Assembly: GCA_014879945.1 (NCBI GenBank)
Contig: JACSRE010000093.1
Span: 1 to 41,287, forward strand
Direction of reading: 5' to 3'
Length of the DNA: 41,287 nt
Origin: Myxococcus sp.
GTDB taxonomy: Bacteria; Myxococcota; Myxococcia; Myxococcales; Myxococcaceae
Position numbers and translations under genes: made by a program. The notes beneath the pieces were generated by a model, which was not told the origin of the DNA, made no database searches, and saw nothing but the letters and a program-made list of their open reading frames with translations. Shown piece after piece: positions 1,287 through 13,622 of the stretch (position 1 is the stretch's first letter; the number at the start of each line of letters is the position of its first letter).

Positions 1287-3806
1287 TTGCGTTCTGCACT
1301 CCAGGCCTTGCGCGTGAGTCTGTCGAGGCACCGGGTGGCCGGGGTGGCGGCCGTGCTGGCGTGCGCGTTCGCGGCGGCGGGGCTGGCGGCGCTGCTGCCG
1401 CCCGTGTGGCGTGTGCAGGCCGAGGTGCTGGTGGCCGAGGGCTCCACCACCTATCGCCTCACCTCGCCCTTCGACGCGGTGCCGCCGCTCGACCGCGGCC
1501 TCGCGCAGCTGCCCGAGCAGCTCACCTCGCGCGCGCACCTGGTGGCGATGGTGAAGCGCACCAACCTGCTCGACCGCTGGGGGCCCTCGCGCCCCTGGCC
1601 GATGCAGCTGAAGGACCAGCTGTTGGAGAAGGTGCGCGGGCCGGTGTCAGACGAAGACAAGCTCGACGCGCTGGTGGCGATGCTGGACGACAAGCTCGCG
1701 GTCTGGGTGGAGAACGACCGGGTCTTCATCGCCTGCGCCTGGCCCCAGCGGGACATCGCGGTGGCGGTGGTCGACGGCACCGTGCGGGCGCTCCAGGGCC
1801 TGCGGCAGGAGCGGGAGATCAAGGCGCTCGAGTCGTCAGCGAGCGCGCTCGACGCGCAGCGGGAAGGCGTCGAGGCCGAGATGCTGCAGCGCCTCGAGGC
1901 CATCGAGGCCGAGCAGCGCGCCGCGCGCGCCGAGCACCGGTGGCCCTCGTACGCGGGCGCGCGGGAGCAGCTGTTGCGAGACAGCACCCGGCGCGCCGAG
2001 CTGTGGCTGCAGGCCTCGAACGTGCACCTGCGCGCCGAGGCGATGGCGCGCTCCAGCAGCCACCGCTACCTCGTCACCCGCCCTGCGCTGCCGCCGCGGC
2101 TGCCCGAGGGCGCGACCCGGGCCGGCTGGGCGCTGGCGTTCGTGCTCACCGCCGCGCTGGTGTTCTTCGCCTCGGCGGTGCTGGCCGCGTACCGCAGCGG
2201 CCGCGTCGTCTCGGGGGAGCAGCTGAGCGAGGCGCTGGGGCTGCCCGTCGTCGGCCGGCTGCAGCTGGGCTGGTCGGGCGTGATGGTGTCGGAGGGGTGG
2301 AGCACGCTCTGGCCGGGGCTGGCGCTGGGTCTCGTGTCGGGGCTCGCGCTGGCGGCGGGGAAGGGCGCGCTCGCGTGGGGCCTGGCCCCGACGGGGCTGT
2401 TGGTGGGCGCCGTCGCGCTCTGGAGGCTGCCGCTGAAGTGGCCGCTGCTGGGGCTGCTGCTGTTGGCCGTCACCGTCGACGACCCCACCGACCGGCCGTA
2501 CTTCAACCTGTGGCGCTCGCCGCTGTGGCCGGTGGGGCGGCTCTTCTTCACCAACGTCGCCTGGTTCACCGGCTTCGAGCTGGCGGTGATGGGGCTGGCG
2601 GCGCTGACGGTGATGCGGCGGGTGCTGGGGCTGTCGGCGCGGGCCGAGGCGCCCGGCATGCCAGGCCCCAGGCCGCTGCGCTCGGCCCTCTTGCTCTCGT
2701 TCCTCACCGTCTGCTGGCTCATCGCCTGGGGCCTGCTGCGCGGCGGCGTCTTCCGTGAGGCGCTGTGGCAGTTTCGCGCGCTGCTCTTCATGCCGGTGGT
2801 GGCGATGCTGGCGCTGGTGGCCTTCGACTTCCCGAAGGACCTGCGCCTGGTGGGCCGGGTGCTCGTCTTCGGCAGCGTGGTGAAGGCGCTGCTCGGCACG
2901 TTCTTCATCTATTTCGTCGCGTTGCCGATGGGCGAGTACCCGCCGCACACCACCGGCCACAACGACACCATGGTGTTCGTCGTCGGGGTGGTGCTGGCGC
3001 TGGTGCGCGTGTGGGAGTGGCCCTCGTGGAGGAACCTCTTCGAGGCGGCGGCGTGGCTGCCGTTCCTGGCGATGGCGCTGCGGCTCAACGACCGGCGCAT
3101 CGCCTACGTCGACATCGTGATGGTGCTCGGCTTCATCTACCTGATGAGCCCCATGCACCGGACCAAGCGCTTCCTCACCCAGGTGATGGTGGCGATGATT
3201 CCGGTGCTCGTCGTCTACGTGGCCGTGGGGTGGAACGCGCGGGGCGGGGTGTTCAAGCCGGTGGCCAAGCTGCGCTCCATCGTCGCGCCGGCCGCCGACA
3301 CCGAAGAAGAGAGCTCCAACGTCGAGCGCGACATCGAGAACTTCAACCTCCTCAAGTCCTGGGAGCGCGACCCGGTGCTGGGCCAGGGCTTCGGCCACGC
3401 CTTCACCGAGTTCCTGCCGTCGAACGACTTCGCCCAGTCGGCCTTCGGGCACGTCGGCCACAACTCGGTGCTGTGGCTGTTGTGGATAGGGGGCATCGCC
3501 GGGTTCTTCGGCGTCTGGCTCTACCTCGGCGTCGCCAGCTTCTTCTTCGCCCGGGCGCTGCGGGTGACCGGCGAGGTGACCGAGCGGGTCGGCCTGCTGG
3601 TGGCCATGGGCGTCGTCATCACCTACCTGCTGCAGTCGTTCGGCGACATGGGCACCCAGTCGATGCAGTTCGTCTTCTTCGTGTCGGTCGCGATGGCCGT
3701 CATCGGCCGCGCCGCCACCCGACACGGCGTGTGGCGCGCGCCGCTCACGTCGAGCGCCGCCGCCCAGGCCCCACCGTCGGCGCTGGGCCACCGCCTGGTT
3801 GCCTGA
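1287..3806 (+). CDS. Fused chain-length (Wzz/PCP) and O-antigen polymerase/ligase (Wzy) protein
   Basis: An 839-aa inner-membrane protein. Residues ~16-39 form the first membrane helix, 40-270 a periplasmic region with a likely coiled coil (~175-260), then the proline-rich TRPALPPRLPEG typical of polysaccharide co-polymerases before a second helix (~280-301) and the tail GLPVVGRL. From ~340 on there are about ten more helices with the Wzy/WaaL signature: GQGFGHAF near residue 698 and GHVGHNSVLWLLWIGG near 721-736. Residues ~88-190 align by eye with the EpsV-like protein at 9511 (KRTNLLDRW versus KQTNLLKSW; GPVSDEDKLDALV versus GPITEEDRIDAMV). It probably polymerises lipid-linked repeat units in the periplasm with built-in length control. 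The start is TTG 1287 or, equally possible, GTG 1314. Confidence 0.82.
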   Translation: MRSALQALRVSLSRHRVAGVAAVLACAFAAAGLAALLPPVWRVQAEVLVAEGSTTYRLTSPFDAVPPLDRGLAQLPEQLTSRAHLVAMVKRTNLLDRWGPSRPWPMQLKDQLLEKVRGPVSDEDKLDALVAMLDDKLAVWVENDRVFIACAWPQRDIAVAVVDGTVRALQGLRQEREIKALESSASALDAQREGVEAEMLQRLEAIEAEQRAARAEHRWPSYAGAREQLLRDSTRRAELWLQASNVHLRAEAMARSSSHRYLVTRPALPPRLPEGATRAGWALAFVLTAALVFFASAVLAAYRSGRVVSGEQLSEALGLPVVGRLQLGWSGVMVSEGWSTLWPGLALGLVSGLALAAGKGALAWGLAPTGLLVGAVALWRLPLKWPLLGLLLLAVTVDDPTDRPYFNLWRSPLWPVGRLFFTNVAWFTGFELAVMGLAALTVMRRVLGLSARAEAPGMPGPRPLRSALLLSFLTVCWLIAWGLLRGGVFREALWQFRALLFMPVVAMLALVAFDFPKDLRLVGRVLVFGSVVKALLGTFFIYFVALPMGEYPPHTTGHNDTMVFVVGVVLALVRVWEWPSWRNLFEAAAWLPFLAMALRLNDRRIAYVDIVMVLGFIYLMSPMHRTKRFLTQVMVAMIPVLVVYVAVGWNARGGVFKPVAKLRSIVAPAADTEEESSNVERDIENFNLLKSWERDPVLGQGFGHAFTEFLPSNDFAQSAFGHVGHNSVLWLLWIGGIAGFFGVWLYLGVASFFFARALRVTGEVTERVGLLVAMGVVITYLLQSFGDMGTQSMQFVFFVSVAMAVIGRAATRHGVWRAPLTSSAAAQAPPSALGHRLVA

Positions 3807-4250: not shown

Positions 4251-4351
4251 AACTGGCGCGGGTTGCTTGCTGCGCCGCGTTATGGGAGACCTATCGAGGA
4301 GCAGTAACGGATCAGCCGCAACTTTCACCGGTGTTTGGGGGAGAAACACAC

Positions 4352-5737
4352 ATGCACTCACTTTTCGGGCGAATTGCAGCAGGACCGGTCGCGCGGGTGA
4401 GCTTCCTGCTCGACCTGCTGTTGGTGCTGATCGCGCTGGGTGGGGCGTCGTGGGTCAGCTCACGCACGCTGGAGCCGATGACGCTCAGCCTGGTGCTCCC
4501 GGCACTCTTGACCTGGCTCATCATCGCGATGGCCCTGCGGCACTACGACCCCTGGGCCTCGGAGCGCGGCGCCTTCGACGACGCGGCGATGACGTCGGTG
4601 CTGGTGCTGGCGGTGACGACGGTGCTGGCGGTCAGCAGCCTGGTCTTCGGCGTCAAGGGCCTGCCCAACGTCGGCGTGTTCCTCCTCATCCTCTGGCCGC
4701 TCGCGGTCGGCATGCGCTTCTCGGTGTTCCGCACCTTCTCGGCGCAGTCGGGCCCCATCGACGACGTGCTCATCGTGGGCGTCGGGGCGCTCGGCCGGGC
4801 CACGGCCGACGACATTCACGGCAAGGGGCGCATGCGCGTCGCGGGCTTCGTTCGCTTCAGCGGCGAGACGACCCCCGCGCAGCTCAAGGGCAAGGTCGTC
4901 GGCACCACGGACGACCTCGACGGCGTGCTGCGGACGCTCCCGGTCGCCGAGGTGTACTTCGCCAACACCGGCCTGGCGAACGCGCCCGAGATGCAGAAGG
5001 CCATCAAGACGTGTGAGTCGTTCGGCGTGCCGTTCGCGCTGCCCGCCTCGATGTTCCGGCTCGACCGCGCCAGCCCCATGGGCAGCCACGGCGTCAAAGA
5101 CGGCTACCTGCACTACCAGACGGTGGCCTCGCGCCCCGTGGCGATGGCCTTCAAGCGCGCCTTCGACATCGTCTCGTCGGGCGTGGCGCTGTGGGTGCTC
5201 GCGCCGCTGCTGCTGGTGGTGGCGGTGCTCATCAAGGCGACCTCGCGCGGCCCGCTGCTGTTCCGCCAGGTGCGCGTGGGCCTGCACGGCCGCCCGTTTC
5301 GCATGCTGAAGTTCCGCACCATGGTCGAGAACGCCGAGGCCCTCAAAGCCGGCCTGTCGGCGAAGAACGAGATGGACGGCCCGGTCTTCAAGATGAAGAG
5401 CGACCCGCGCATCACCCGCGTGGGCAAGTTCCTGCGGAAGTTCTCGATCGACGAGCTGCCGCAGCTCATCAACGTGCTCCGCGGCGACATGAGCGTCGTG
5501 GGCCCGCGCCCGCCGGTGCCTCAAGAGGTCGCGAAGTACCAGACCTGGCAGCGCCGCAGGCTCTCGGTGCGCCCCGGGCTGACGTGCATCTGGCAGGTCA
5601 GCGGCCGCAACGAGATCTCCTTCGAGCAGTGGATGTACATGGACCTCCAGTACATCGACACCTGGAGCTTCACGAAGGACATCGGCCTCATCCTCAAGAC
5701 GTTCCCCGTGGTGTTCACCGGCCGCGGCGCGAGCTGA
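4352..5737 (+). CDS. epsZ: Polyprenyl-phosphate hexose-1-phosphate transferase (EPS priming enzyme)
   Basis: A 461-aa membrane enzyme that moves a sugar-1-phosphate from a UDP-sugar to undecaprenyl phosphate, the first step of EPS repeat-unit synthesis. Four N-terminal helices (to ~residue 125) are followed by a Rossmann-like CoA_binding_3 region starting DDVLIVGVGALGRAT, one more helix (ALWVLAPLLLVVAVLI), then the bacterial sugar transferase domain with LLFRQVRVG, MLKFRTM, SIDELPQLINVLRGDMSVVG and RPGLTCIWQVSGRN. I chose ATG 4352 because GGGGGAG at 4337-4343 sits eight bases upstream; an in-frame GTG at 4331 would put that site inside the gene. It begins the block matching the M. xanthus order epsZ-wzx-epsY-epsX-epsW-epsV-epsU. 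Confidence 0.9.
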   Translation: MHSLFGRIAAGPVARVSFLLDLLLVLIALGGASWVSSRTLEPMTLSLVLPALLTWLIIAMALRHYDPWASERGAFDDAAMTSVLVLAVTTVLAVSSLVFGVKGLPNVGVFLLILWPLAVGMRFSVFRTFSAQSGPIDDVLIVGVGALGRATADDIHGKGRMRVAGFVRFSGETTPAQLKGKVVGTTDDLDGVLRTLPVAEVYFANTGLANAPEMQKAIKTCESFGVPFALPASMFRLDRASPMGSHGVKDGYLHYQTVASRPVAMAFKRAFDIVSSGVALWVLAPLLLVVAVLIKATSRGPLLFRQVRVGLHGRPFRMLKFRTMVENAEALKAGLSAKNEMDGPVFKMKSDPRITRVGKFLRKFSIDELPQLINVLRGDMSVVGPRPPVPQEVAKYQTWQRRRLSVRPGLTCIWQVSGRNEISFEQWMYMDLQYIDTWSFTKDIGLILKTFPVVFTGRGAS

Positions 5738-5752
5738 CGCGACTCTTGCTGC

Positions 5753-7282
5753 GTGGCCGACCTCGCTGCCCAGAAGCCCGACGAAGGCGAGACCCGGCTG
5801 GCCGCGCTGAACGCGGCCAAGCTGTTCGGCTCGTTGATGGTGACGTGGGGCATCGCGCTGGGCGTGCGGCTGATGCTGCCGCGCTACCTGGGGCCGCAGG
5901 CCTTCGGCGTCTTGAACTTCGCCGACGCCTTCGTCTCGACCGTCTTCGTCCTCACCAGCTTCGGCCTCGACATCTACATCCGCAAAGAGGTGTCGGTTCG
6001 GTACGCCCACGCCTCGGAGTTCTTCGGCGGGGTGACGGCGCTGCGTGTGGGGCTGTCGCTGGCGCTCTTCGCGGGCATGCAGGGCTTCCTGGTGCTGACC
6101 GACCGGCCGCCCGAGACGTGGGCCATCGTGCATGTCTTCGGCGCGGCGGCGCTCTTCACCACCATCGGCCAGAGCCTGGCGGCGCTGCTGCACGCGCGCG
6201 GCACGGTGAACGAGCTGTCGGTGCTCAACATCGTCTCGAAGCTGGTGTGGGGCGCCGGCACGGTGGCCGCGGTGCTGCTCGACCAGCCGCTGTGGGTGGT
6301 GGGCCTGCCGCTGGCGGTGAGCGAGCTCTTGAAGCTGGTGGTGAACGCCCGCCTCGCCTCGAGGTACCTGCAGCTGCGCTGGGTGGTCGACCTCAAGGCC
6401 ACGAAGCTGGCGCTGCTCGGCTCCCTCCCGATGTTCGTCAACCTGGCCGCGCACACCATCTACAACAAGCTCGACGTCAGCATCCTCGCGGTGGTGGCCG
6501 GTGACGAAGAGGTGGCCTGGTACGGCGCGGCCAGCCTGCTCGCCGGCCTGGCGTTGATGGTGACGCCGATGATCGGCTGGGTGTTGATGCCGCTGTTCGC
6601 GCGGGCGCGGGCGCGCTCCGACGACGAGTACACGCTGGTGATGCGCCGCTCGCTCGAGCTGGTGCTGGCCATCGCCTTCCCCACCTCGCTCTTCATGGCG
6701 CTGGGCGCGAACGAGTGGGTGACGCTGCTGTACGGCGCCGCCTACGCGCCGGCGGCCACCTCGCTGAAGGTGCTCTCGAGCATCTTCGTGCTCACCTACG
6801 TCGCCATCCTCTCGGCGAACGTGCTCATCCTCACCGGGCGGGCGTGGGCGCAGGCCGTCATCTCCATCGGCGGGCTGGTGGCCAACCCGCTGCTCAACTG
6901 GCTCTTCATCCCCGCCTCGGTGAAGTGGTTCGGCCTGGGTGGCGCGGGCATCGGCGCGGCCATCTCGCAGCTGGGCACCGAGGTGGTGGTGACGGTGGCG
7001 ATGACGGCGCTGGTGGGGCGCCGCGCGTTCGACCGCCGCTCGGTCAGCGTCATCGCGCGCACCGTGGCGGCCTGCGCGCTGGTGGCGGCGCTCGACTGGT
7101 GGCTGCTCGAGCGCGCGCACCCCGCGCTGCGGTTGGCCCTCGACGCCGTGCTGTACGTCGCGCTGGTGGTGGGCTCGGGCGCGCTGAAGGTGCGCGAGCT
7201 GGTGGCCTTCGTGCGCACCGCGCGCAGCACGCCCCCGCTCCAGCCCGCGGCCCCGTTGAACGCCACTCCAGTCGTGCCATGA
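5753..7282 (+). CDS. wzx: Wzx-type polysaccharide repeat-unit flippase
   Basis: A 509-aa integral membrane protein of the MATE/MOP (polysaccharide_synt) superfamily, with about 12-14 hydrophobic helices. The N-terminal part has the usual Wzx feel: LNAAKLFGSLMVTWGIALGV, then PRYLGPQAFGVLNFADAFVS. It would flip undecaprenyl-linked repeat units made on the cytoplasmic face to the periplasm for polymerisation. GTG start 15 nt after the epsZ-like stop; its own stop overlaps the OPX gene start (ATGA), which implies translational coupling of flippase and export protein. The C-terminal ~20 residues are polar and proline-rich. Confidence 0.9.
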   Translation: MADLAAQKPDEGETRLAALNAAKLFGSLMVTWGIALGVRLMLPRYLGPQAFGVLNFADAFVSTVFVLTSFGLDIYIRKEVSVRYAHASEFFGGVTALRVGLSLALFAGMQGFLVLTDRPPETWAIVHVFGAAALFTTIGQSLAALLHARGTVNELSVLNIVSKLVWGAGTVAAVLLDQPLWVVGLPLAVSELLKLVVNARLASRYLQLRWVVDLKATKLALLGSLPMFVNLAAHTIYNKLDVSILAVVAGDEEVAWYGAASLLAGLALMVTPMIGWVLMPLFARARARSDDEYTLVMRRSLELVLAIAFPTSLFMALGANEWVTLLYGAAYAPAATSLKVLSSIFVLTYVAILSANVLILTGRAWAQAVISIGGLVANPLLNWLFIPASVKWFGLGGAGIGAAISQLGTEVVVTVAMTALVGRRAFDRRSVSVIARTVAACALVAALDWWLLERAHPALRLALDAVLYVALVVGSGALKVRELVAFVRTARSTPPLQPAAPLNATPVVP

Positions 7283-7890
7283 ACCAGACCGCCATGACGC
7301 CCTCTCTGCGACTGCTGCTCGTGTTGGTGCCCGCGCTGGCCGGGTGCTGGGCGCCCAAAGGCGTCTTCATTCCCGTCGAGGCCTACGGCGCGCACGTGCC
7401 GGGCGAGTACGTCATCGGGCCCGGCGACACGCTGCAGGTGCGCGTGTTCCAGCAAGAGGCCATGTCGGCGCGCGTGCGCGTGCGCGGCGACGGCAAGGTG
7501 TCGCTGCCGCTGGTGAACGACTGGGTGGTGGCCGGCAAGATGCCCACCCAGGTCGCCGCCGAGCTGCAGGTGCGCCTGAAGGAGTTCATCAACACGCCCG
7601 TCGTCACCGTCTCGCTCGAAGAGATGCGGCCGTTGACGGTGTCGGTGGTGGGCGAGGTGGTGCGCGCCGGGGTGGTGACGCTCGAGCCTGGCGCCGGGGT
7701 GCTGCACGCCATCGCCGCCGCGGGCGGCCTGACCGACTTCGCGCACAAAGACGGCCTCTTCGTGCTGCGCAAGCCCGGGCCCGTCGACAAGCCGGTGCGC
7801 ATTCGCTTCACCTGGGAGGCCCTGACGTCGGGCGACCAGGCGTCGGTGAAGTTCCTGCTCCAACCCCAGGACGTCGTCGTCGCCGAATGA
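7279..7890 (+). CDS. epsY: Short outer-membrane polysaccharide export (OPX/Wza-like) lipoprotein
   Basis: A 203-aa lipoprotein with signal peptide and lipobox ALAGC (Cys ~26). It has the Poly_export domain (GEYVIGPGDTLQVRVFQQE to about residue 115) and one SLBB-type domain (TVSVVGEVVRAGVVTLEPGA to ~165). It is much shorter than E. coli Wza (~380 aa) and lacks the C-terminal helix that forms Wza's outer-membrane pore. Short OPX proteins of this kind are reported to work with a separate beta-barrel porin, and such a barrel is encoded directly downstream (overlap ATGA). Role: periplasmic or outer-membrane part of the EPS export channel. Confidence 0.9.
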   Translation: MNQTAMTPSLRLLLVLVPALAGCWAPKGVFIPVEAYGAHVPGEYVIGPGDTLQVRVFQQEAMSARVRVRGDGKVSLPLVNDWVVAGKMPTQVAAELQVRLKEFINTPVVTVSLEEMRPLTVSVVGEVVRAGVVTLEPGAGVLHAIAAAGGLTDFAHKDGLFVLRKPGPVDKPVRIRFTWEALTSGDQASVKFLLQPQDVVVAE

Positions 7891-9092
7891 GCGCGCGCGC
7901 CGCCACCGTCTGCTGCGCGCTGCTGGCCGTCGACGCGGCCGCGGCGGTGGCGGGCTACGAGGTGTCGGCCACCACCACCGTCTCGACGCGCTCCCCGCTG
8001 CCCGGCGACGTGGCCGTAGGCGCCACCACCGACCTGCAGCTCGACCCCTCGGCCACCGGCACCCTCGCGTGGGGCCGCACGGTGCTGCTGCTGCGCTACG
8101 CCCCGCAGCTCATCATCCGCGAGCCGCAGGTCGCCGCGCGGGTGTTGCCCCTGCACCACGGCGTCGCCTCGTTCACGCACCGCTTCGCGCGGGCCTCGCT
8201 CTTGTTGAGCGAAGAGGCCTCGTACGGGGTGGCCGACATCGGCTCGCTGCGCCTGCCCGCCGGCGGCCGGCCGACCGGCGTCTTCGAGGTGCAGACGCTG
8301 GGGGCCGTGCCCTACGTGCGCTCGGCCTCGCTGCTGGCGTTCGACGCGACGCCCGACGACGGCGTCTCGCTCTTCTTCTCGGCGGGCTACCTGCTCTCGG
8401 GCGACCCCACCGGCGGCCTCCAGCTGCCGCTGCAGTTCGGCCCCGTCGGCACCGCGAGCCTGCGCCTGAGGGTGGACCGCCGGCTCGGGCTCCTCACGGG
8501 GGCCCAGGCGAGCCACGCCTGGTTCAACACCGGCGCCGAGCAGTCCATCGCGCTGCTGACCGAGACGGTGGAGTGGCAGGCGACGCGCGCCACCTCGCTG
8601 TCCCTGGGCGGCGGCGTGGGCGTCACGCGGGAGCGCGTGGTGGCCATGGAGGGCGGGCCCCTGCCCGGCCTCTTCTCCGAGGTGCTGCCCGTCGCCTCGG
8701 CGTCGGTGTCTTCGTCGCTCCAGCCCGGGGGCACGCCGGTGCAGGTGCAGCTGAGCGCCCTGCTGTCGCCCTTCGCCGACCGCTTCACCGGCCTGGTCTA
8801 CGAGCGCCTCGAGGGGCGCGCCTCGGCGACCTCGCGGCTCACCCGCGAGCTGAGCGCCTCGGCCGCGGCCGGCACCGGCTACGCCATTCCCATCGGGCGG
8901 GCCCAGCAGGCCGGCGACAGCGCCACCTTCGGCGAGGCCTCGCTGCGCTGGGAGCCGTCGTCGTGGCTCGCGCTGGTGGGCACCGGCCGCTTCGTGTGGA
9001 CCGAGCAGCCCCGCACCGGCCAGCCCGGCCAGGCCCTGTGGGCCGTCACCATCGCCGCCGTCGTGCGCGACCGCGACACCACCGCCTTTTGA
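7887..9092 (+). CDS. epsX: Outer-membrane beta-barrel for EPS export (Wzp/EpsX-like)
   Basis: A 401-aa protein with an N-terminal signal (MSARAATVCCALLAV, cleavage near AAAAVAG) and then alternating hydrophobic/polar strands throughout, ending in DTTAF with a terminal Phe as expected for a BAM-inserted barrel. Examples of strand-like segments: TVLLLRYAPQLIIRE, GVSLFFSAGYLLSG, WLALVGTGRFVWTEQ. No enzymatic motif seen. It is coupled to the short OPX gene by a 4-nt overlap, the arrangement known for OPX-plus-porin pairs in myxobacteria. The gene name rests on position in the conserved order and on fold, so it is less certain than for its neighbours. Confidence 0.75.
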   Translation: MSARAATVCCALLAVDAAAAVAGYEVSATTTVSTRSPLPGDVAVGATTDLQLDPSATGTLAWGRTVLLLRYAPQLIIREPQVAARVLPLHHGVASFTHRFARASLLLSEEASYGVADIGSLRLPAGGRPTGVFEVQTLGAVPYVRSASLLAFDATPDDGVSLFFSAGYLLSGDPTGGLQLPLQFGPVGTASLRLRVDRRLGLLTGAQASHAWFNTGAEQSIALLTETVEWQATRATSLSLGGGVGVTRERVVAMEGGPLPGLFSEVLPVASASVSSSLQPGGTPVQVQLSALLSPFADRFTGLVYERLEGRASATSRLTRELSASAAAGTGYAIPIGRAQQAGDSATFGEASLRWEPSSWLALVGTGRFVWTEQPRTGQPGQALWAVTIAAVVRDRDTTAF

Positions 9093-9127: not shown

Positions 9128-9514
9128 GTGAGCGAGCACCAACACACCGCGCTGGTCGTCGACGACGACCCCGACATCCGCAAGGTCATCGGCGCCTACC
9201 TGACGCGCAAGGGCTTCACCGTCACCTTCGCCGCTGATGGGCGGTCGGCCATCACGCAGCTCGACGAGGTGCGGCCTTCGCTCCTGTGCATCGACCTGAT
9301 GCTGCCCGAGTCGTCCGGCTACGACGTGTGCGACCACGTCAGGGCGTCGCCGACGCTCAAGGGCATGCCGATTCTGATGATCAGCGCCCGCACCATGCCC
9401 GAGGACCGCGCCTACGCCGAAGAGCTGGGCGTCAAGTGCTACCTCGCCAAGCCCTTCACCCAGGCGCAGTTCCTCGCCGCCGTCGAAGAGACCCTGAGCC
9501 AGGACGCCACGTGA
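9128..9514 (+). CDS. epsW: Single-domain response regulator (EpsW-like)
   Basis: A 128-aa CheY-like receiver with no output domain. Acidic pocket VVDDDPD, phospho-acceptor Asp in LLCIDLMLPESSGYD, switch Ser in LMISAR and conserved Lys in YLAKPF are all present, so it should be phosphorylated. GTG start at 9128, with GGGGGAC (9112-9118) as a possible ribosome site in the 35-nt gap after the barrel gene. Its stop overlaps the chain-length gene start (GTGA). A lone receiver inside the assembly operon implies that signalling acts directly on the machinery; the partner kinase is not in the window. Confidence 0.85.
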   Translation: MSEHQHTALVVDDDPDIRKVIGAYLTRKGFTVTFAADGRSAITQLDEVRPSLLCIDLMLPESSGYDVCDHVRASPTLKGMPILMISARTMPEDRAYAEELGVKCYLAKPFTQAQFLAAVEETLSQDAT

Positions 9515-11040
9515 GCCACCCCGCCGCGCCGCTGCCCACCTCGCCGACGCCCCGCGAAGAGTCGCTCGACCTCTTCGACTACGCGCTGATTCGCAACGTC
9601 ATCGGCTTCGTGTTTCGTGGCGTGCGGCGCCACCGGCTCTTCACGCTGTTGGTGTTCGCGCTGGTGCTGTGGCTCGGCGCGGTGGCCGTCTTCCTCGTGC
9701 CCCGCACCTGGCACGCCGAGGCGCGGCTGCTGGCGAACCAGAACGAGATCATCCGCGCCCTGGGCAACCCCCGCTCGAGCCTGCAGTCCGAAGACCCGAC
9801 GCGCGCCGCGCGCGAGCTCATCTTCGCGCACGACAACCTCGTCTCGCTCATCAAGCAGACCAACCTGCTCAAGAGCTGGGAAGAGCACCGGCCGCCCGCG
9901 GTGCGCGTGAAGGACCTGCTGATGCGGCTCGTCACCGGCCCCATCACCGAGGAGGACCGCATCGACGCCATGGTGGGCACGCTCGAGAAGCGGCTCAAGG
10001 TCGAGACCGACGCGCAGACCGTCACCATCACCGTGGACTGGCAGGACCCGCAGACGGCGTACCTGCTGGTCGAGACCGCGCAGCAGAACTTCCTCGAGAC
10101 GCGCCACGTCACCGAGATGACCGCCATCAGCGAGGCCCTCGCCATCCTCGAGAGCCACGCCTCGCAGGTGCAGAAGGCCGTCGACGACGCGCTCCACGAG
10201 CTCGAGCGCGTTCGCGAGGAGCGGCGCAAGGGCGGCGCCACCGGCGGCGGCCCCGTGCCCCCCGGAGAGACGGGCCAGGCCTTCGCGCCGCTCCCGCCGC
10301 CGCCCGCGCCCGAGCCTCCGCCCAACGCCGCGCCGGGGGCCACCGACCAGGAGCTCGCGCAGCTGAAGTTCCTGCTCAACTCCAAGCGCCGCGCCCTGGC
10401 CGACCTCGAGGACTTTCGCAGCCGGCGCCTGAGCGAGCTGACGGTGCAGCTGCAGGACTACCGGGTGCAGTACGCCGACCAGCACCCCGTCGTCATCGAC
10501 GCCCAGCAGCGCATCACCCAGATGAAGGGCGACTCGCCGCAGATGTCGCAGGTGAAGGCCGACATCGAGAGCCTCATCGCCGAGTACCGCCGCAAGGGCG
10601 GCCGCGACCCAGACTCGGTCGTCGAGCCCGTGCGCGCCTCGCCGCGCGCCTCGCCCCGGCGCGGCCAGCAGACCCAGGTGGCCCTCACCAACTCGGAGCT
10701 CTCCGACGACCCGCTCGTCGAGCACGCCCGCAACAACCTGCGCGTCGCGGCCGCCAAGTACGAGGAGCTGATGATGCGCATCGACGGCGCCCGCATCGAG
10801 CAGGACACGGCGCGCGCGGCCTTCAAGTACCGCTACAGCGTGGTGCGGCCCGCCTCGGTGCCCCGCAAGCCCGCCTCGCCCAACGCGGTGGTGCTGATGG
10901 TGGCGGTGGTGGTGGCGGCGCTCGGGCTCGCGCTGGTGACGGGGGCCGCGCGCGACCTGCGCTCCGGCACCTTCGTCGAGCCCTGGCAGGTCAGCCGCCG
11001 CCTGGGCCTGCCGGTGGTGAGCCAGGTGAAGTTGTCATGA
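9511..11040 (+). CDS. epsV: Chain-length determinant (Wzz/PCP-2-like), no kinase domain
   Basis: A 509-aa inner-membrane co-polymerase. The first helix is ~residues 40-65 (FTLLVFALVLWLGAVAVFLV), followed by a long periplasmic region with coiled-coil stretches and a Pro/Ala-rich insert (~248-276, containing PLPPPPAPEPPPN). The C-terminal helix (~463-483) is preceded by VVRPASVPRKPASPN, the usual PCP proline motif. The cytosolic tail is short (RRLGLPVVSQVKLS), so no BY-kinase domain is fused. It sets EPS chain length and links polymerase to export channel. Its N-terminal ~200 residues are paralogous to those of the Wzz-Wzy fusion at 1287. Start (GTG) and stop overlap its neighbours. Confidence 0.88.
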   Translation: MSHPAAPLPTSPTPREESLDLFDYALIRNVIGFVFRGVRRHRLFTLLVFALVLWLGAVAVFLVPRTWHAEARLLANQNEIIRALGNPRSSLQSEDPTRAARELIFAHDNLVSLIKQTNLLKSWEEHRPPAVRVKDLLMRLVTGPITEEDRIDAMVGTLEKRLKVETDAQTVTITVDWQDPQTAYLLVETAQQNFLETRHVTEMTAISEALAILESHASQVQKAVDDALHELERVREERRKGGATGGGPVPPGETGQAFAPLPPPPAPEPPPNAAPGATDQELAQLKFLLNSKRRALADLEDFRSRRLSELTVQLQDYRVQYADQHPVVIDAQQRITQMKGDSPQMSQVKADIESLIAEYRRKGGRDPDSVVEPVRASPRASPRRGQQTQVALTNSELSDDPLVEHARNNLRVAAAKYEELMMRIDGARIEQDTARAAFKYRYSVVRPASVPRKPASPNAVVLMVAVVVAALGLALVTGAARDLRSGTFVEPWQVSRRLGLPVVSQVKLS

Positions 11041-12254
11041 CGGCGGCCGTCGCCGTCGCCTGCGGCCTGGCGCTGCTGGGCGTGCCCGTCTTCGTGGCGT
11101 GCAGCTACCTGGGCGGGCTGGCGCTGCTGTCTCGCCCCCTGCCGCCGCCGGTCGCGCCGTCGCCCGCGACGCTGCGCTTCGACGTGGTGGTGCCGGCGCA
11201 CGACGAAGCGGCCGGCATCGGCGCGACGGTGAAGAGCCTGCTGGCCCTCGACTACCCCTCGAGCCTCTTTCGGGTGGTGGTGGTGGCCGACAACTGCGCC
11301 GACGCCACCGCCGAGAAGGCGCGCGAGGCCGGCGCCACGGTGCTCGAGCGCGCCGACGCCGAGCGCCGCGGCAAGGGCTTCGCGCTCGCCCACGCCTTCG
11401 AGTGGAGCCTGGGGCAGGGCACCGCCGACGCCTGCGTCGTCGTCGACGCCGACACCGTCGTCTCGAAGAACCTGCTGTCGGCCTACGCGGCGCGGCTGGC
11501 CCGCGGCGCCACCGCCATGCAGGCGCACTACGGCGTCGCCAACCCGCTGGCCTCGTGGCGCACGCGGCTGATGCGCATCGCGCTGGCGATGTTCCACCAG
11601 GTGCGCTCCACCGCCCGGGAGCGCCTGGGCGTCTCGTGCGGGCTGCGCGGCAACGGCATGTGCTTCTCGACCGCCCTGCTGCGCGAGGTGCCGCACGACG
11701 CCTTCTCGCTCGTCGAAGACCTCGAGTACGGCATTCGCATCGGCCGCCGGGGCCACCGGGTGTGGTGGGTGGGCGAGGCCGACGTGCTGGGCGAGATGGT
11801 GTCGGGCGAAGCGGCGTCGGTGTCGCAGCGGCGGCGCTGGGAGCACGGCCGCGCCGAGATGGTGAAGCTCCACGGGTGGCCGCTGTTGTCCGAAGCGCTG
11901 AAGAAGCGCGACGGCCTGCTGCTCGACCTCGCCATGGACGTGCTGGTGCCGCCGTTGAGCCGGGTGGTGATGGCCGCCGGCGCCGGCCTGGTGGCGTCGT
12001 GGGCGCTGGCCTTCTTCTTCCCCTCGCCGGCTGGGTTGGCGCCGCTGTCGCTCTTCACCGCCTGCGTCACGGCGCTGGGGCTCTACGTGGGGGCGGGCTG
12101 GCTCCACTCGGGCACCGGCCTGCGCGGCCTGCTGGACCTCGCCTTCGCCCCGGCCTACGTGGCGTGGAAGGTGGCGCTCGCGGTGCGCGGCCGGGCGGGG
12201 CAGAAACCACAGACGTGGGTACGCACGACACGCGAGGGTGAGACGCGGCCATGA
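11037..12254 (+). CDS. epsU: Membrane-bound GT2 glycosyltransferase (EpsU-like)
   Basis: A 405-aa enzyme with an N-terminal helix, a cytosolic GT-A domain and ~3 C-terminal helices. Seen: FDVVVPAHDEAAGIGATV, DxD in VVDADTVV, the ED site VEDLEYG and QRRRWEHG (QxxRW type), which together resemble BcsA/hyaluronan-synthase-like transferases. It probably adds a sugar to the lipid-linked EPS repeat unit; a processive role cannot be excluded because QxxRW is present. ATGA overlaps occur at both ends, so it belongs to the same operon. It matches the EpsU position after EpsV in M. xanthus. Confidence 0.82.
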   Translation: MTAAVAVACGLALLGVPVFVACSYLGGLALLSRPLPPPVAPSPATLRFDVVVPAHDEAAGIGATVKSLLALDYPSSLFRVVVVADNCADATAEKAREAGATVLERADAERRGKGFALAHAFEWSLGQGTADACVVVDADTVVSKNLLSAYAARLARGATAMQAHYGVANPLASWRTRLMRIALAMFHQVRSTARERLGVSCGLRGNGMCFSTALLREVPHDAFSLVEDLEYGIRIGRRGHRVWWVGEADVLGEMVSGEAASVSQRRRWEHGRAEMVKLHGWPLLSEALKKRDGLLLDLAMDVLVPPLSRVVMAAGAGLVASWALAFFFPSPAGLAPLSLFTACVTALGLYVGAGWLHSGTGLRGLLDLAFAPAYVAWKVALAVRGRAGQKPQTWVRTTREGETRP

Positions 12255-12703
12255 GCAAGGCGAAGACAGACGGCCGGCCCAGGCTGACCCAGCAGGTCTA
12301 CCAGCAGCTCGCCGGCGTGATGCGCGGCACCTGGCAGTCGCTCGCGGTGGTGCCGGCCAGCCCGTCGATGTCGGCCAGCGCCTTCGCCGAGGCCGTCGTC
12401 GAGGTGGCGCGGCTGGCCCGGGGCGCGCCGGCGAAGCTGTTCCTCACCGAGGGCCTCGAGAAGGCCGGCGTGTCGAAGCTGATCGTCGAGCTGAGCCAGC
12501 ACGTCGACCAGGGCGGGCTCGCGGTGGTGTGCGTCGAGTCGGTCATCTCACAGCAGGCCGGCGTGCCGCTGGCGATGGTGTGCGACGCGGCGCTCCTGGT
12601 GGTGCACCTGGGCGTGACGCGCAAAGAAGACGCCGAAGGCACGGTGGGCATCATCGGGAAGCAGAAGTTCCTCGGCGCCGTCACCATCGAGTCGATGCGC
12701 TGA
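12251..12703 (+). CDS. P-loop-less CpsD/Wze-like protein (possible BY-kinase pseudoenzyme)
   Basis: A 150-aa protein, ATG in an overlap with the GT2 stop. Its layout resembles the second half of CpsD/Wzc tyrosine autokinases: a strand GLAVVCVESVISQQAG where kinases have a Walker A' (IIDTPP), then AMVCDAALLVVHLGVTRKED and LGAVTI, like 'aDgvllVvr.g.t' and 'lGvVln'. The catalytic Asp/Pro positions are replaced (VCVESV), no GxxxxGKT/S Walker A is visible, and there is no tyrosine-rich tail (a single Tyr, residue 17). It would not bind ATP normally. A structural partner of the EpsV-like protein is my inference; a diverged enzyme of other type is possible. Confidence 0.5.
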   Translation: MSKAKTDGRPRLTQQVYQQLAGVMRGTWQSLAVVPASPSMSASAFAEAVVEVARLARGAPAKLFLTEGLEKAGVSKLIVELSQHVDQGGLAVVCVESVISQQAGVPLAMVCDAALLVVHLGVTRKEDAEGTVGIIGKQKFLGAVTIESMR

Positions 12704-12707
12704 GTCG

Positions 12708-13622
12708 TCAGAAGTGGTGGCGGGTGCCGCGGAGCCTGAAGGCCAGCGCGCGCGCCGCCAGCCACCCCGCCAGCTCCGCCGCCGACCGCTGCCCATCGAC
12801 GGGGTAGCGGGGCAGCACGGCGCCGGGTCGCCGCTCCGAGAGGCGGTAGGGCCGGGCCTCGGTCGTCCACACGGTGAAGTCGCCCAGCGCACGGAGCAGC
12901 TCGACGTGCCGTCGCTGGAAGTGGTGCTGCGGCGTGCCGAAGGGGAACGCGAAGTGCCGCTGCCGGCCGAAGAGGCGCTCGAAGTCGTCGCGTGAGGCGC
13001 GGTAGTCGGCGGCGGCCTCGGCGTCGGGCAGCGTCACCGGGCTCGCGTGCAGGTTCGAGTGGTTGCCCACGATGACGTTGGGGAGCGCCGCGAGCGCCCT
13101 CACCTCGTCGGGGGTGGCCATGGCGAACTCGGGCACGTCAGCCAGCCCGCGCAGGTCGGCGCGCGTGTTCTCGGTGGCGTTGAGGTGCGGCGACGCCAGG
13201 AGCTCGAGCGCCTCGGCGCGGGGCGTACCCGCGATGAGGCGCTGCTCCACCAGGTCCCACCGGAAGCCCGCGCGCCGCTCGACCTTGGCGGGGCAGACGA
13301 AGAAGAAGAACTCGACCGAGGGGAAGCGGGCCGCGCGGGTGCGCACGTACTCGGCGGCGTCGCGGTAGCCGTCGTCGAAGGACAGCGAGAGCCAGTGGGC
13401 GCTGGTGCCCGGCCGCCTCGAGAGCAGCAGCTCGAGCAGGTCGTCGAGCGTCGAGGGGGCGATGGCCAGGCCGGGCTGCCAGTCGGTGGCGCGCGGGCGC
13501 TCGGCGACGCGGTGCAGGCACAACGACACGCCCAGGCCCGCCAACGCGGCGCCCACGCCCACCTCGAGCGCCGGGCGGGGCAGCGCGCGGCCCGTCATCG
13601 CGGCCAGGGCATCGGGCGTCAT
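12708..13622 (-). CDS. Polysaccharide deacetylase (CE4 / NodB fold)
   Basis: A 304-aa NodB-domain protein. Motif 1 LSFDDGYRD (residues 80-88) gives the catalytic and metal-binding Asp pair; motif 2 GNHSNLHAS gives metal-binding His188 and His192; FAFPFGTP is motif 3. Such enzymes remove acetyl groups from N-acetylated sugars in EPS or peptidoglycan. The first ~60 residues carry no clear cleavable signal, although a short apolar stretch occurs at ~22-36, so cytosolic action on precursors is as possible as export. It is convergent with the CpsD-like gene (4 nt apart) and divergent from the WecG-type gene across only 41 nt. Confidence 0.85.
   Translation of the reverse strand: MTPDALAAMTGRALPRPALEVGVGAALAGLGVSLCLHRVAERPRATDWQPGLAIAPSTLDDLLELLLSRRPGTSAHWLSLSFDDGYRDAAEYVRTRAARFPSVEFFFFVCPAKVERRAGFRWDLVEQRLIAGTPRAEALELLASPHLNATENTRADLRGLADVPEFAMATPDEVRALAALPNVIVGNHSNLHASPVTLPDAEAAADYRASRDDFERLFGRQRHFAFPFGTPQHHFQRRHVELLRALGDFTVWTTEARPYRLSERRPGAVLPRYPVDGQRSAAELAGWLAARALAFRLRGTRHHF

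Follow-up and report, generated by a model that had tools for sequence, protein, structure and literature searches.

A probable EcpK-type BY pseudokinase beside a kinase-less EpsV co-polymerase in an eps operon of Myxococcus sp.

The gene that closes an eps operon in Myxococcus sp. raises a question: what does a protein that resembles a tyrosine kinase without an ATP site do beside a polysaccharide co-polymerase that has no kinase domain of its own? The gene, delimited by its open reading frame, by alignment, by profile search and by codon statistics, occupies positions 12251..12703 on the + strand of the stretch of DNA that was analysed (the window: 41,287 nucleotides, contig JACSRE010000093.1, from a source assembly of 7.72 Mb in 448 contigs), and encodes 150 amino acids. 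A precedent exists. EcpK (MXAN_7447, WzeX) of Myxococcus xanthus, described in 2025, is a tyrosine pseudokinase that is needed for EPS, and it binds EpsV, a co-polymerase that likewise has no kinase domain (PMC12004946). Very probably, the window protein is a BY pseudokinase of this EcpK type, derived from a kinase, that docks on the tail of EpsV and stabilises it without phosphorylation.

The gene in its operon

That 12251..12703 is a real gene follows from the GC content at its codon positions (0.70/0.45/0.96), in which two competing frames differ, and from its differences to three relatives, which are mostly synonymous (pS/pN of 0.32/0.10, 0.27/0.05 and 0.39/0.16). Its start lies inside the stop codon of epsU (ATGA, an overlap of 4 nt), it is the last + strand gene of the operon, and a convergent gene (12708-13622), matching Polysacc_deac_1, lies directly beyond it; the initial annotation had likewise placed the protein at the end of the EPS operon. 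A pattern scan of the + strand between 11000 and 14000 found no terminator-like site after ecpK.

The genes upstream on the + strand are eps genes too. Those recognised by NCBI models, each with a score under the curated cut-off of its model, encode the glycosyltransferase EpsU (11037..12254; NF041865, E 4e-172), the PCP-2 co-polymerase EpsV, with 509 residues, two TM stretches and no kinase domain (9511..11040; NCBIfam NF041864, E 1.4e-106), the single-domain receiver EpsW, whose start is inferred (9128..9514; NF041866, E 2e-35), and an 839-residue protein in which an EpsV-like co-polymerase is fused to a Wzy_EPS polymerase (1287..3806; NF041864, E 1e-16 over residues 6-219, and NF041870, E 1e-112 over residues 364-816). 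Between this fusion and EpsW lie the genes for the phosphoglycosyl transferase EpsZ (4331..5737; PF02397, E 2e-69), a Wzx flippase (5753..7282; PF01943, E 1e-19), an EpsY-like short OPX protein with an inferred start (7279..7890; Poly_export, E 1e-20, and SLBB) and an EpsX-like protein (7887..9092), which position and homologues, and thus synteny, mark as a probable outer-membrane barrel.

The neighbour of ecpK is not constant. Across 39 loci the nearest upstream eps gene is epsU in 11, wzy in 11, epsW in five, epsV in four and epsZ in one, with none in the remaining seven. The five epsW cases, with 15-51 nt between the two genes, and the presence of epsW in the same operon as ecpK in the window are what favours a proposal of the initial annotation: that the receiver, rather than tyrosine phosphorylation, controls the pseudokinase. 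EpsW, once phosphorylated (by DifE; PMC4671073), would bind the pseudokinase and so govern the EpsV ring. Gene order by itself is no proof of contact, however, and what is reported for M. xanthus points elsewhere: EpsW acts there on the initiating transferase EpsZ, it made EpsZ more active in a heterologous host, and proximity labelling with EpsW enriched, among known EPS proteins, EpsZ and DifE alone (PMC12802240). Control by EpsW is therefore dropped as very improbable.

The initial annotation had proposed to look elsewhere for a true BY kinase, and there is one: a fused Wzc/BtkB-like protein on another contig (C351, 35696-37783), which scores 195 bits with TIGR01007 and is the only match of the genome above the cut-off of that model. 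The two true kinases of M. xanthus are described in PMC12004946 as not thought necessary for EcpK function.

Lost motifs and probable kinship with tyrosine kinases

An alignment of 32 family members fixes the places at which a nucleotide site would be expected. The Walker A place (residues 33-42, 12347..12376, + strand) reads VVPASPSMSA and holds no lysine, nor does it in any other aligned member (0/32 with lysine). At the Walker A' place (residues 62-69, 12434..12457, +; KLFLTEGL) the Asp is lost and the window protein reads L-T-E, though 16 of the 32 retain D. At the Walker B place (residues 91-98, 12521..12544, +; AVVCVESV) the window protein has E for D, as do six of the 32 members in all, with D in 24. 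Its sole tyrosine is Y17, so that there is no C-terminal Tyr cluster. The loss of Walker A, of the Walker A' Asp and of the Tyr tail had been described in the initial annotation, and since there is no Walker A lysine, no A' Asp and no tyrosine other than Y17, that description is correct. Two features looked for as marks of a catalytic BY kinase of the CpsD/CapB/Wzc kind, the Walker A lysine and the C-terminal Tyr cluster, are thus both absent from the window protein. What the family has kept instead is W28, G136 and G142, invariant in 32/32 members. In a wider set of 66 members (which omits L086, L090 and any product not exceeding 100 aa) a GK[ST] string occurs in six, in the N-terminal tail or after Walker B and never at the place of the P-loop.

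Membership of the EcpK family was assigned through a homologue in another genome (L082, genome G028) and the published residue numbering, rather than through the M. xanthus sequence: a single-sequence search with the window protein finds a match in the genome of L082 at E 7e-14, and the L082 protein, apparently a Myxococcus-type homologue, has Glu at 52, 59 and 131, as in the published numbering of EcpK, and a basic C-terminus. Judged by sequence, then, the window protein is a new member of the EcpK-type BY pseudokinases, of which the central idea was published in 2025 (PMC12004946). The protein is conserved in the order. Of 145 genomes there, 111 give a match to the profile at E<=1e-3, five of these 111 having kinase-like proteins in place of EcpK members, and a wider profile search, covering 195 genomes from the phylum, gave 113 matches at E<=1e-6.

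Kinship with kinases is harder to see. Searches of Pfam, NCBIfam and PDB with the window sequence by itself gave no usable match and no kinase family; the family profile met only weak matches among PDB sequences (designed repeat proteins and, at E 0.42, a site-determining protein of the MinD type); and an AlphaFold2 model of the window protein, built from an alignment of three close sequences, has a pLDDT of 35. The 32-member profile scores E 0.08 with intact fused kinases, which is no better than its scores with ParA (0.05) and receivers (0.047). Weak and unspecific scores against intact kinases, and the low-level ParA and MinD matches, are what would be expected if the window protein did not come from a kinase at all and were some other alpha/beta protein, receiver- or ParA-like, recruited to EpsV.

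A different picture emerges from stand-alone proteins and from distant members of the family. The family profile matches five stand-alone kinase-like proteins at E 6.5e-7 to 9e-4, over the C-terminal 50-60 columns only; each of the five has its best score with a tyrosine-kinase model, TIGR03018 (E between 3e-32 and 7e-28), and an EpsV-like match lies in four of the five stretches around them. Four distant members (L180-L183, from three genomes in other families of the phylum) are longer and retain, between Walker A' and Walker B, the segment missing in EcpK; two of them (L181 and L182) also retain VLVVD at Walker A'. When an extended family profile, made of the 32 members, L180-L183 and four further distant members, is compared profile to profile with the five kinase-like proteins, the match extends over 137 columns with a probability of 95% and E 3e-8, a result that is favoured because the five had been picked by the family profile itself and hence by similarity to the family. 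Among 30 column shuffles the lowest value was 0.026, and the controls gave 0.03 (ParA), 0.035 (receivers) and 0.48 (glycosyltransferases). The profile of L180-L183 alone matches the same five proteins at E 2e-10 over 160 columns, with 0.018 as the best of 30 shuffles; across both profiles ParA, receivers and glycosyltransferases lie between 0.01 and 0.48. The N-terminal half of the family, taken alone against the kinase-like proteins, gives 0.047, which is not significant, so that the evidence for kinship in sequence comes chiefly from the C-terminal half.

These comparisons make an origin outside the kinases improbable. The match is specific to kinase-like proteins as against ParA, receivers and glycosyltransferases; all of the weak genome matches (5/5) are of the kinase type; longer intermediates exist in L180-L183; and EcpK itself, in the published AlphaFold2 model, matches Wzc, Etk, VpsO and CapB in structure (PMC12004946). 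The profile-profile check against kinases that the initial annotation had proposed has a divided outcome: it succeeds with the stand-alone kinase-like proteins (E 3e-8) and is weak with intact fused kinases (E 0.08), the match becoming clear only once the distant members and the stand-alone proteins are included. A kinase-like order of secondary structure in the EcpK type is accordingly a prediction, drawn from sequence profiles and from the published AlphaFold2 model of EcpK.

Two further arrangements were seen among these relatives. In the kinase-like proteins L140, L142 and L144 an Arg replaces the Walker A lysine and the Tyr tail is absent, and an EpsV-like match lies in the stretch around each; they are possibly another pseudokinase set. 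In L182 (5713-6768, - strand) an FHA domain (Pfam, E 4e-11) precedes the EcpK-like pseudokinase in one frame, a possible phospho-threonine input.

The EpsV tail and its partners

Beyond its second TM stretch the window EpsV has 32 more residues, which agrees with the earlier reading of an EpsV-like protein without a kinase domain. The last 20 of its residues (490-509, EPWQVSRRLGLPVVSQVKLS; 10978..11037, +) form the proposed docking peptide. The contact would be that of the published EcpK/EpsV model, in which the C-terminal tail of EpsV sits in a groove of EcpK (PMC12004946); for the M. xanthus pair there are also a deletion phenotype, mutual stabilisation and a two-hybrid interaction (PMC12004946). 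Within the tail, W and Q are invariant in 34/34 aligned EpsV proteins (frames of 380-620 aa, less three duplicate loci), and a conserved L-x-L-P-V-L follows. One EpsV (L086) carries the motif WQL-x-x-x-L-x-LP twice in tandem at its C-terminus.

The two proteins also travel together. Among 59 relatives, in counts that are not phylogenetically independent and that score as absent two genomes with weak single-sequence matches (G029 and G041, E 0.006) not recovered by the profile, 35 have both EpsV and EcpK, none has EcpK alone, two have EpsV alone and 22 have neither. The two EpsV-only genomes have a completeness of 78% and 88%; three genomes of the window's own genus have neither protein. At one locus (L076, 6848-8872, - strand) EpsV and a second EcpK-like domain share a single 674-aa frame, the sole such frame in the 39 EcpK loci and possibly an assembly error; single polypeptides that join a PCP to a pseudokinase occur in other bacteria (PMC12004946). 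The sequence intermediates and this fusion to EpsV support both an origin from tyrosine kinases and a partnership with EpsV.

Not every feature of the M. xanthus contact is found in the window. The search for the Arg hook and the Glu pocket met A, E and V at positions 52, 59 and 131 of the window EcpK, and an EpsV that ends in VKLS without a terminal Arg pair; the basic C-terminal helix is missing too, with 3 K/R in the last 20 residues of EcpK. Of the 32 rows of the alignment, seven have no EpsV tail and L076 shows a fused end; in the 24 with a usable tail the Arg hook (an EpsV ending in ERR) occurs three times, and these are the same three rows that have acidic residues at 52 and 131 in EcpK and 8 K/R in its last 20. 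In the 66-member set, acidic 52 and 131 combine with a tail of at least 8 K/R in 15 proteins, and position 59 carries E in 45 proteins and D in six. E52 and E131 are, according to PMC12004946, confined to close relatives of M. xanthus, and for this reason the hook and the pocket are not treated as family-defining; that the window pair lacks the hook, two of the three pocket Glu and the basic helix means that the hook features are not universal. With the hook limited to a few lineages, comparison of the aligned tails points to the WQ tail as the general dock.

The EpsV-Wzy_EPS fusion offers a second possible partner. It is encoded upstream of the separate EpsV and on the same strand, it recurs at four other loci (L159, L139, L157 and L158), and it carries an LGLPVV-like tail between its two modules; in most other lineages examined the Wzy_EPS match starts only past the EpsV-like part, in frames of varying length. 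Among the papers listed by searches of open-access literature, none concerned a Wzz/Wzy fusion. The pseudokinase might thus serve the fused protein as much as EpsV, a reading that would add to the preferred one rather than replace it: the fusion would enter the EpsV ring, and the pseudokinase would cap the resulting mixed ring, which would hold the polymerase. If that were so, a phosphorylation-free co-polymerase would carry the polymerase itself in this clade, and chain length would derive from a fixed ratio of polymerase to co-polymerase and from docking alone. The tail itself argues otherwise. Its Gln is kept, yet the Trp that is invariant in 34/34 EpsV tails is missing in 5/5 fused copies, which speaks against docking like that of EpsV; EcpK is found, moreover, in lineages whose Wzy is unfused. 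Service to the fused protein and a mixed ring of fixed composition are accordingly both unlikely.

Docking on EpsV itself remains the preferred explanation, and its steps can be laid out. The ancestor would have been a stand-alone kinase partner of PCP-2 co-polymerases, which on the way lost its Tyr tail, its nucleotide site and some 50 residues from between Walker A' and Walker B. In docking into EcpK, the EpsV cytoplasmic tail (WQVxRxLGLPVV) may take the place of the helix and strand with which a complete kinase domain begins; EcpK would stabilise EpsV and aid the formation of its ring at the inner membrane without tyrosine phosphorylation; chain polymerisation and export would be supported as a result. 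We infer by analogy that the window pair acts like the M. xanthus pair, docking geometry and ring included. The initial annotation had made two proposals that can now be placed in this scheme. A pseudokinase where a BY-kinase partner would be expected is what is found, a site-less protein, probably derived from tyrosine kinases, beside a kinase-less EpsV, with the published EcpK/EpsV pair as a parallel; and the structural role at the chain-length protein is most likely exerted by binding EpsV, as by EcpK in M. xanthus (PMC12004946).

Scope of the type and comparison with known systems

The EcpK/EpsV type, on this evidence, is not confined to close relatives of M. xanthus; its general features can be told from its local ones: the WQ tail, loss of the P-loop lysine and co-occurrence are general; the Arg hook, Glu pocket and basic helix are lineage-specific. 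A scaffold model of this kind is testable through small changes in the Trp and Gln of the tail.

The nearest known system is EcpK/EpsV of M. xanthus itself. Shared are a small stand-alone protein of the eps cluster without a Walker A lysine or a Tyr tail, a kinase-less EpsV as partner, and the equivalent of E59. The window pair differs in lacking Glu at 52 and 131, the Arg pair at the end of EpsV and the basic C-terminal helix, and in gene order: its ecpK overlaps epsU and lies one gene from epsV, whereas the M. xanthus ecpK is in a second cluster. HfsB/HfsA of Caulobacter crescentus also combines a pseudokinase with a kinase-less PCP-2 in a partnership that stabilises (PMC12004946), although it belongs to the holdfast pathway and is likened here by description, not by sequence. 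Systems with a stand-alone BY kinase, CapB/CapA of Staphylococcus aureus among them, share the contact between the PCP tail and its partner, as published, and the profile kinship of the window protein's family with stand-alone kinase-like proteins is a likeness to this type; such kinases have a nucleotide site and a Tyr tail, and the window protein has neither. The fused BY kinase of the Wzc/BtkB type, which the genome itself encodes on C351, likewise brings together a PCP and a kinase-type domain, but there the kinase domain is fused and intact.
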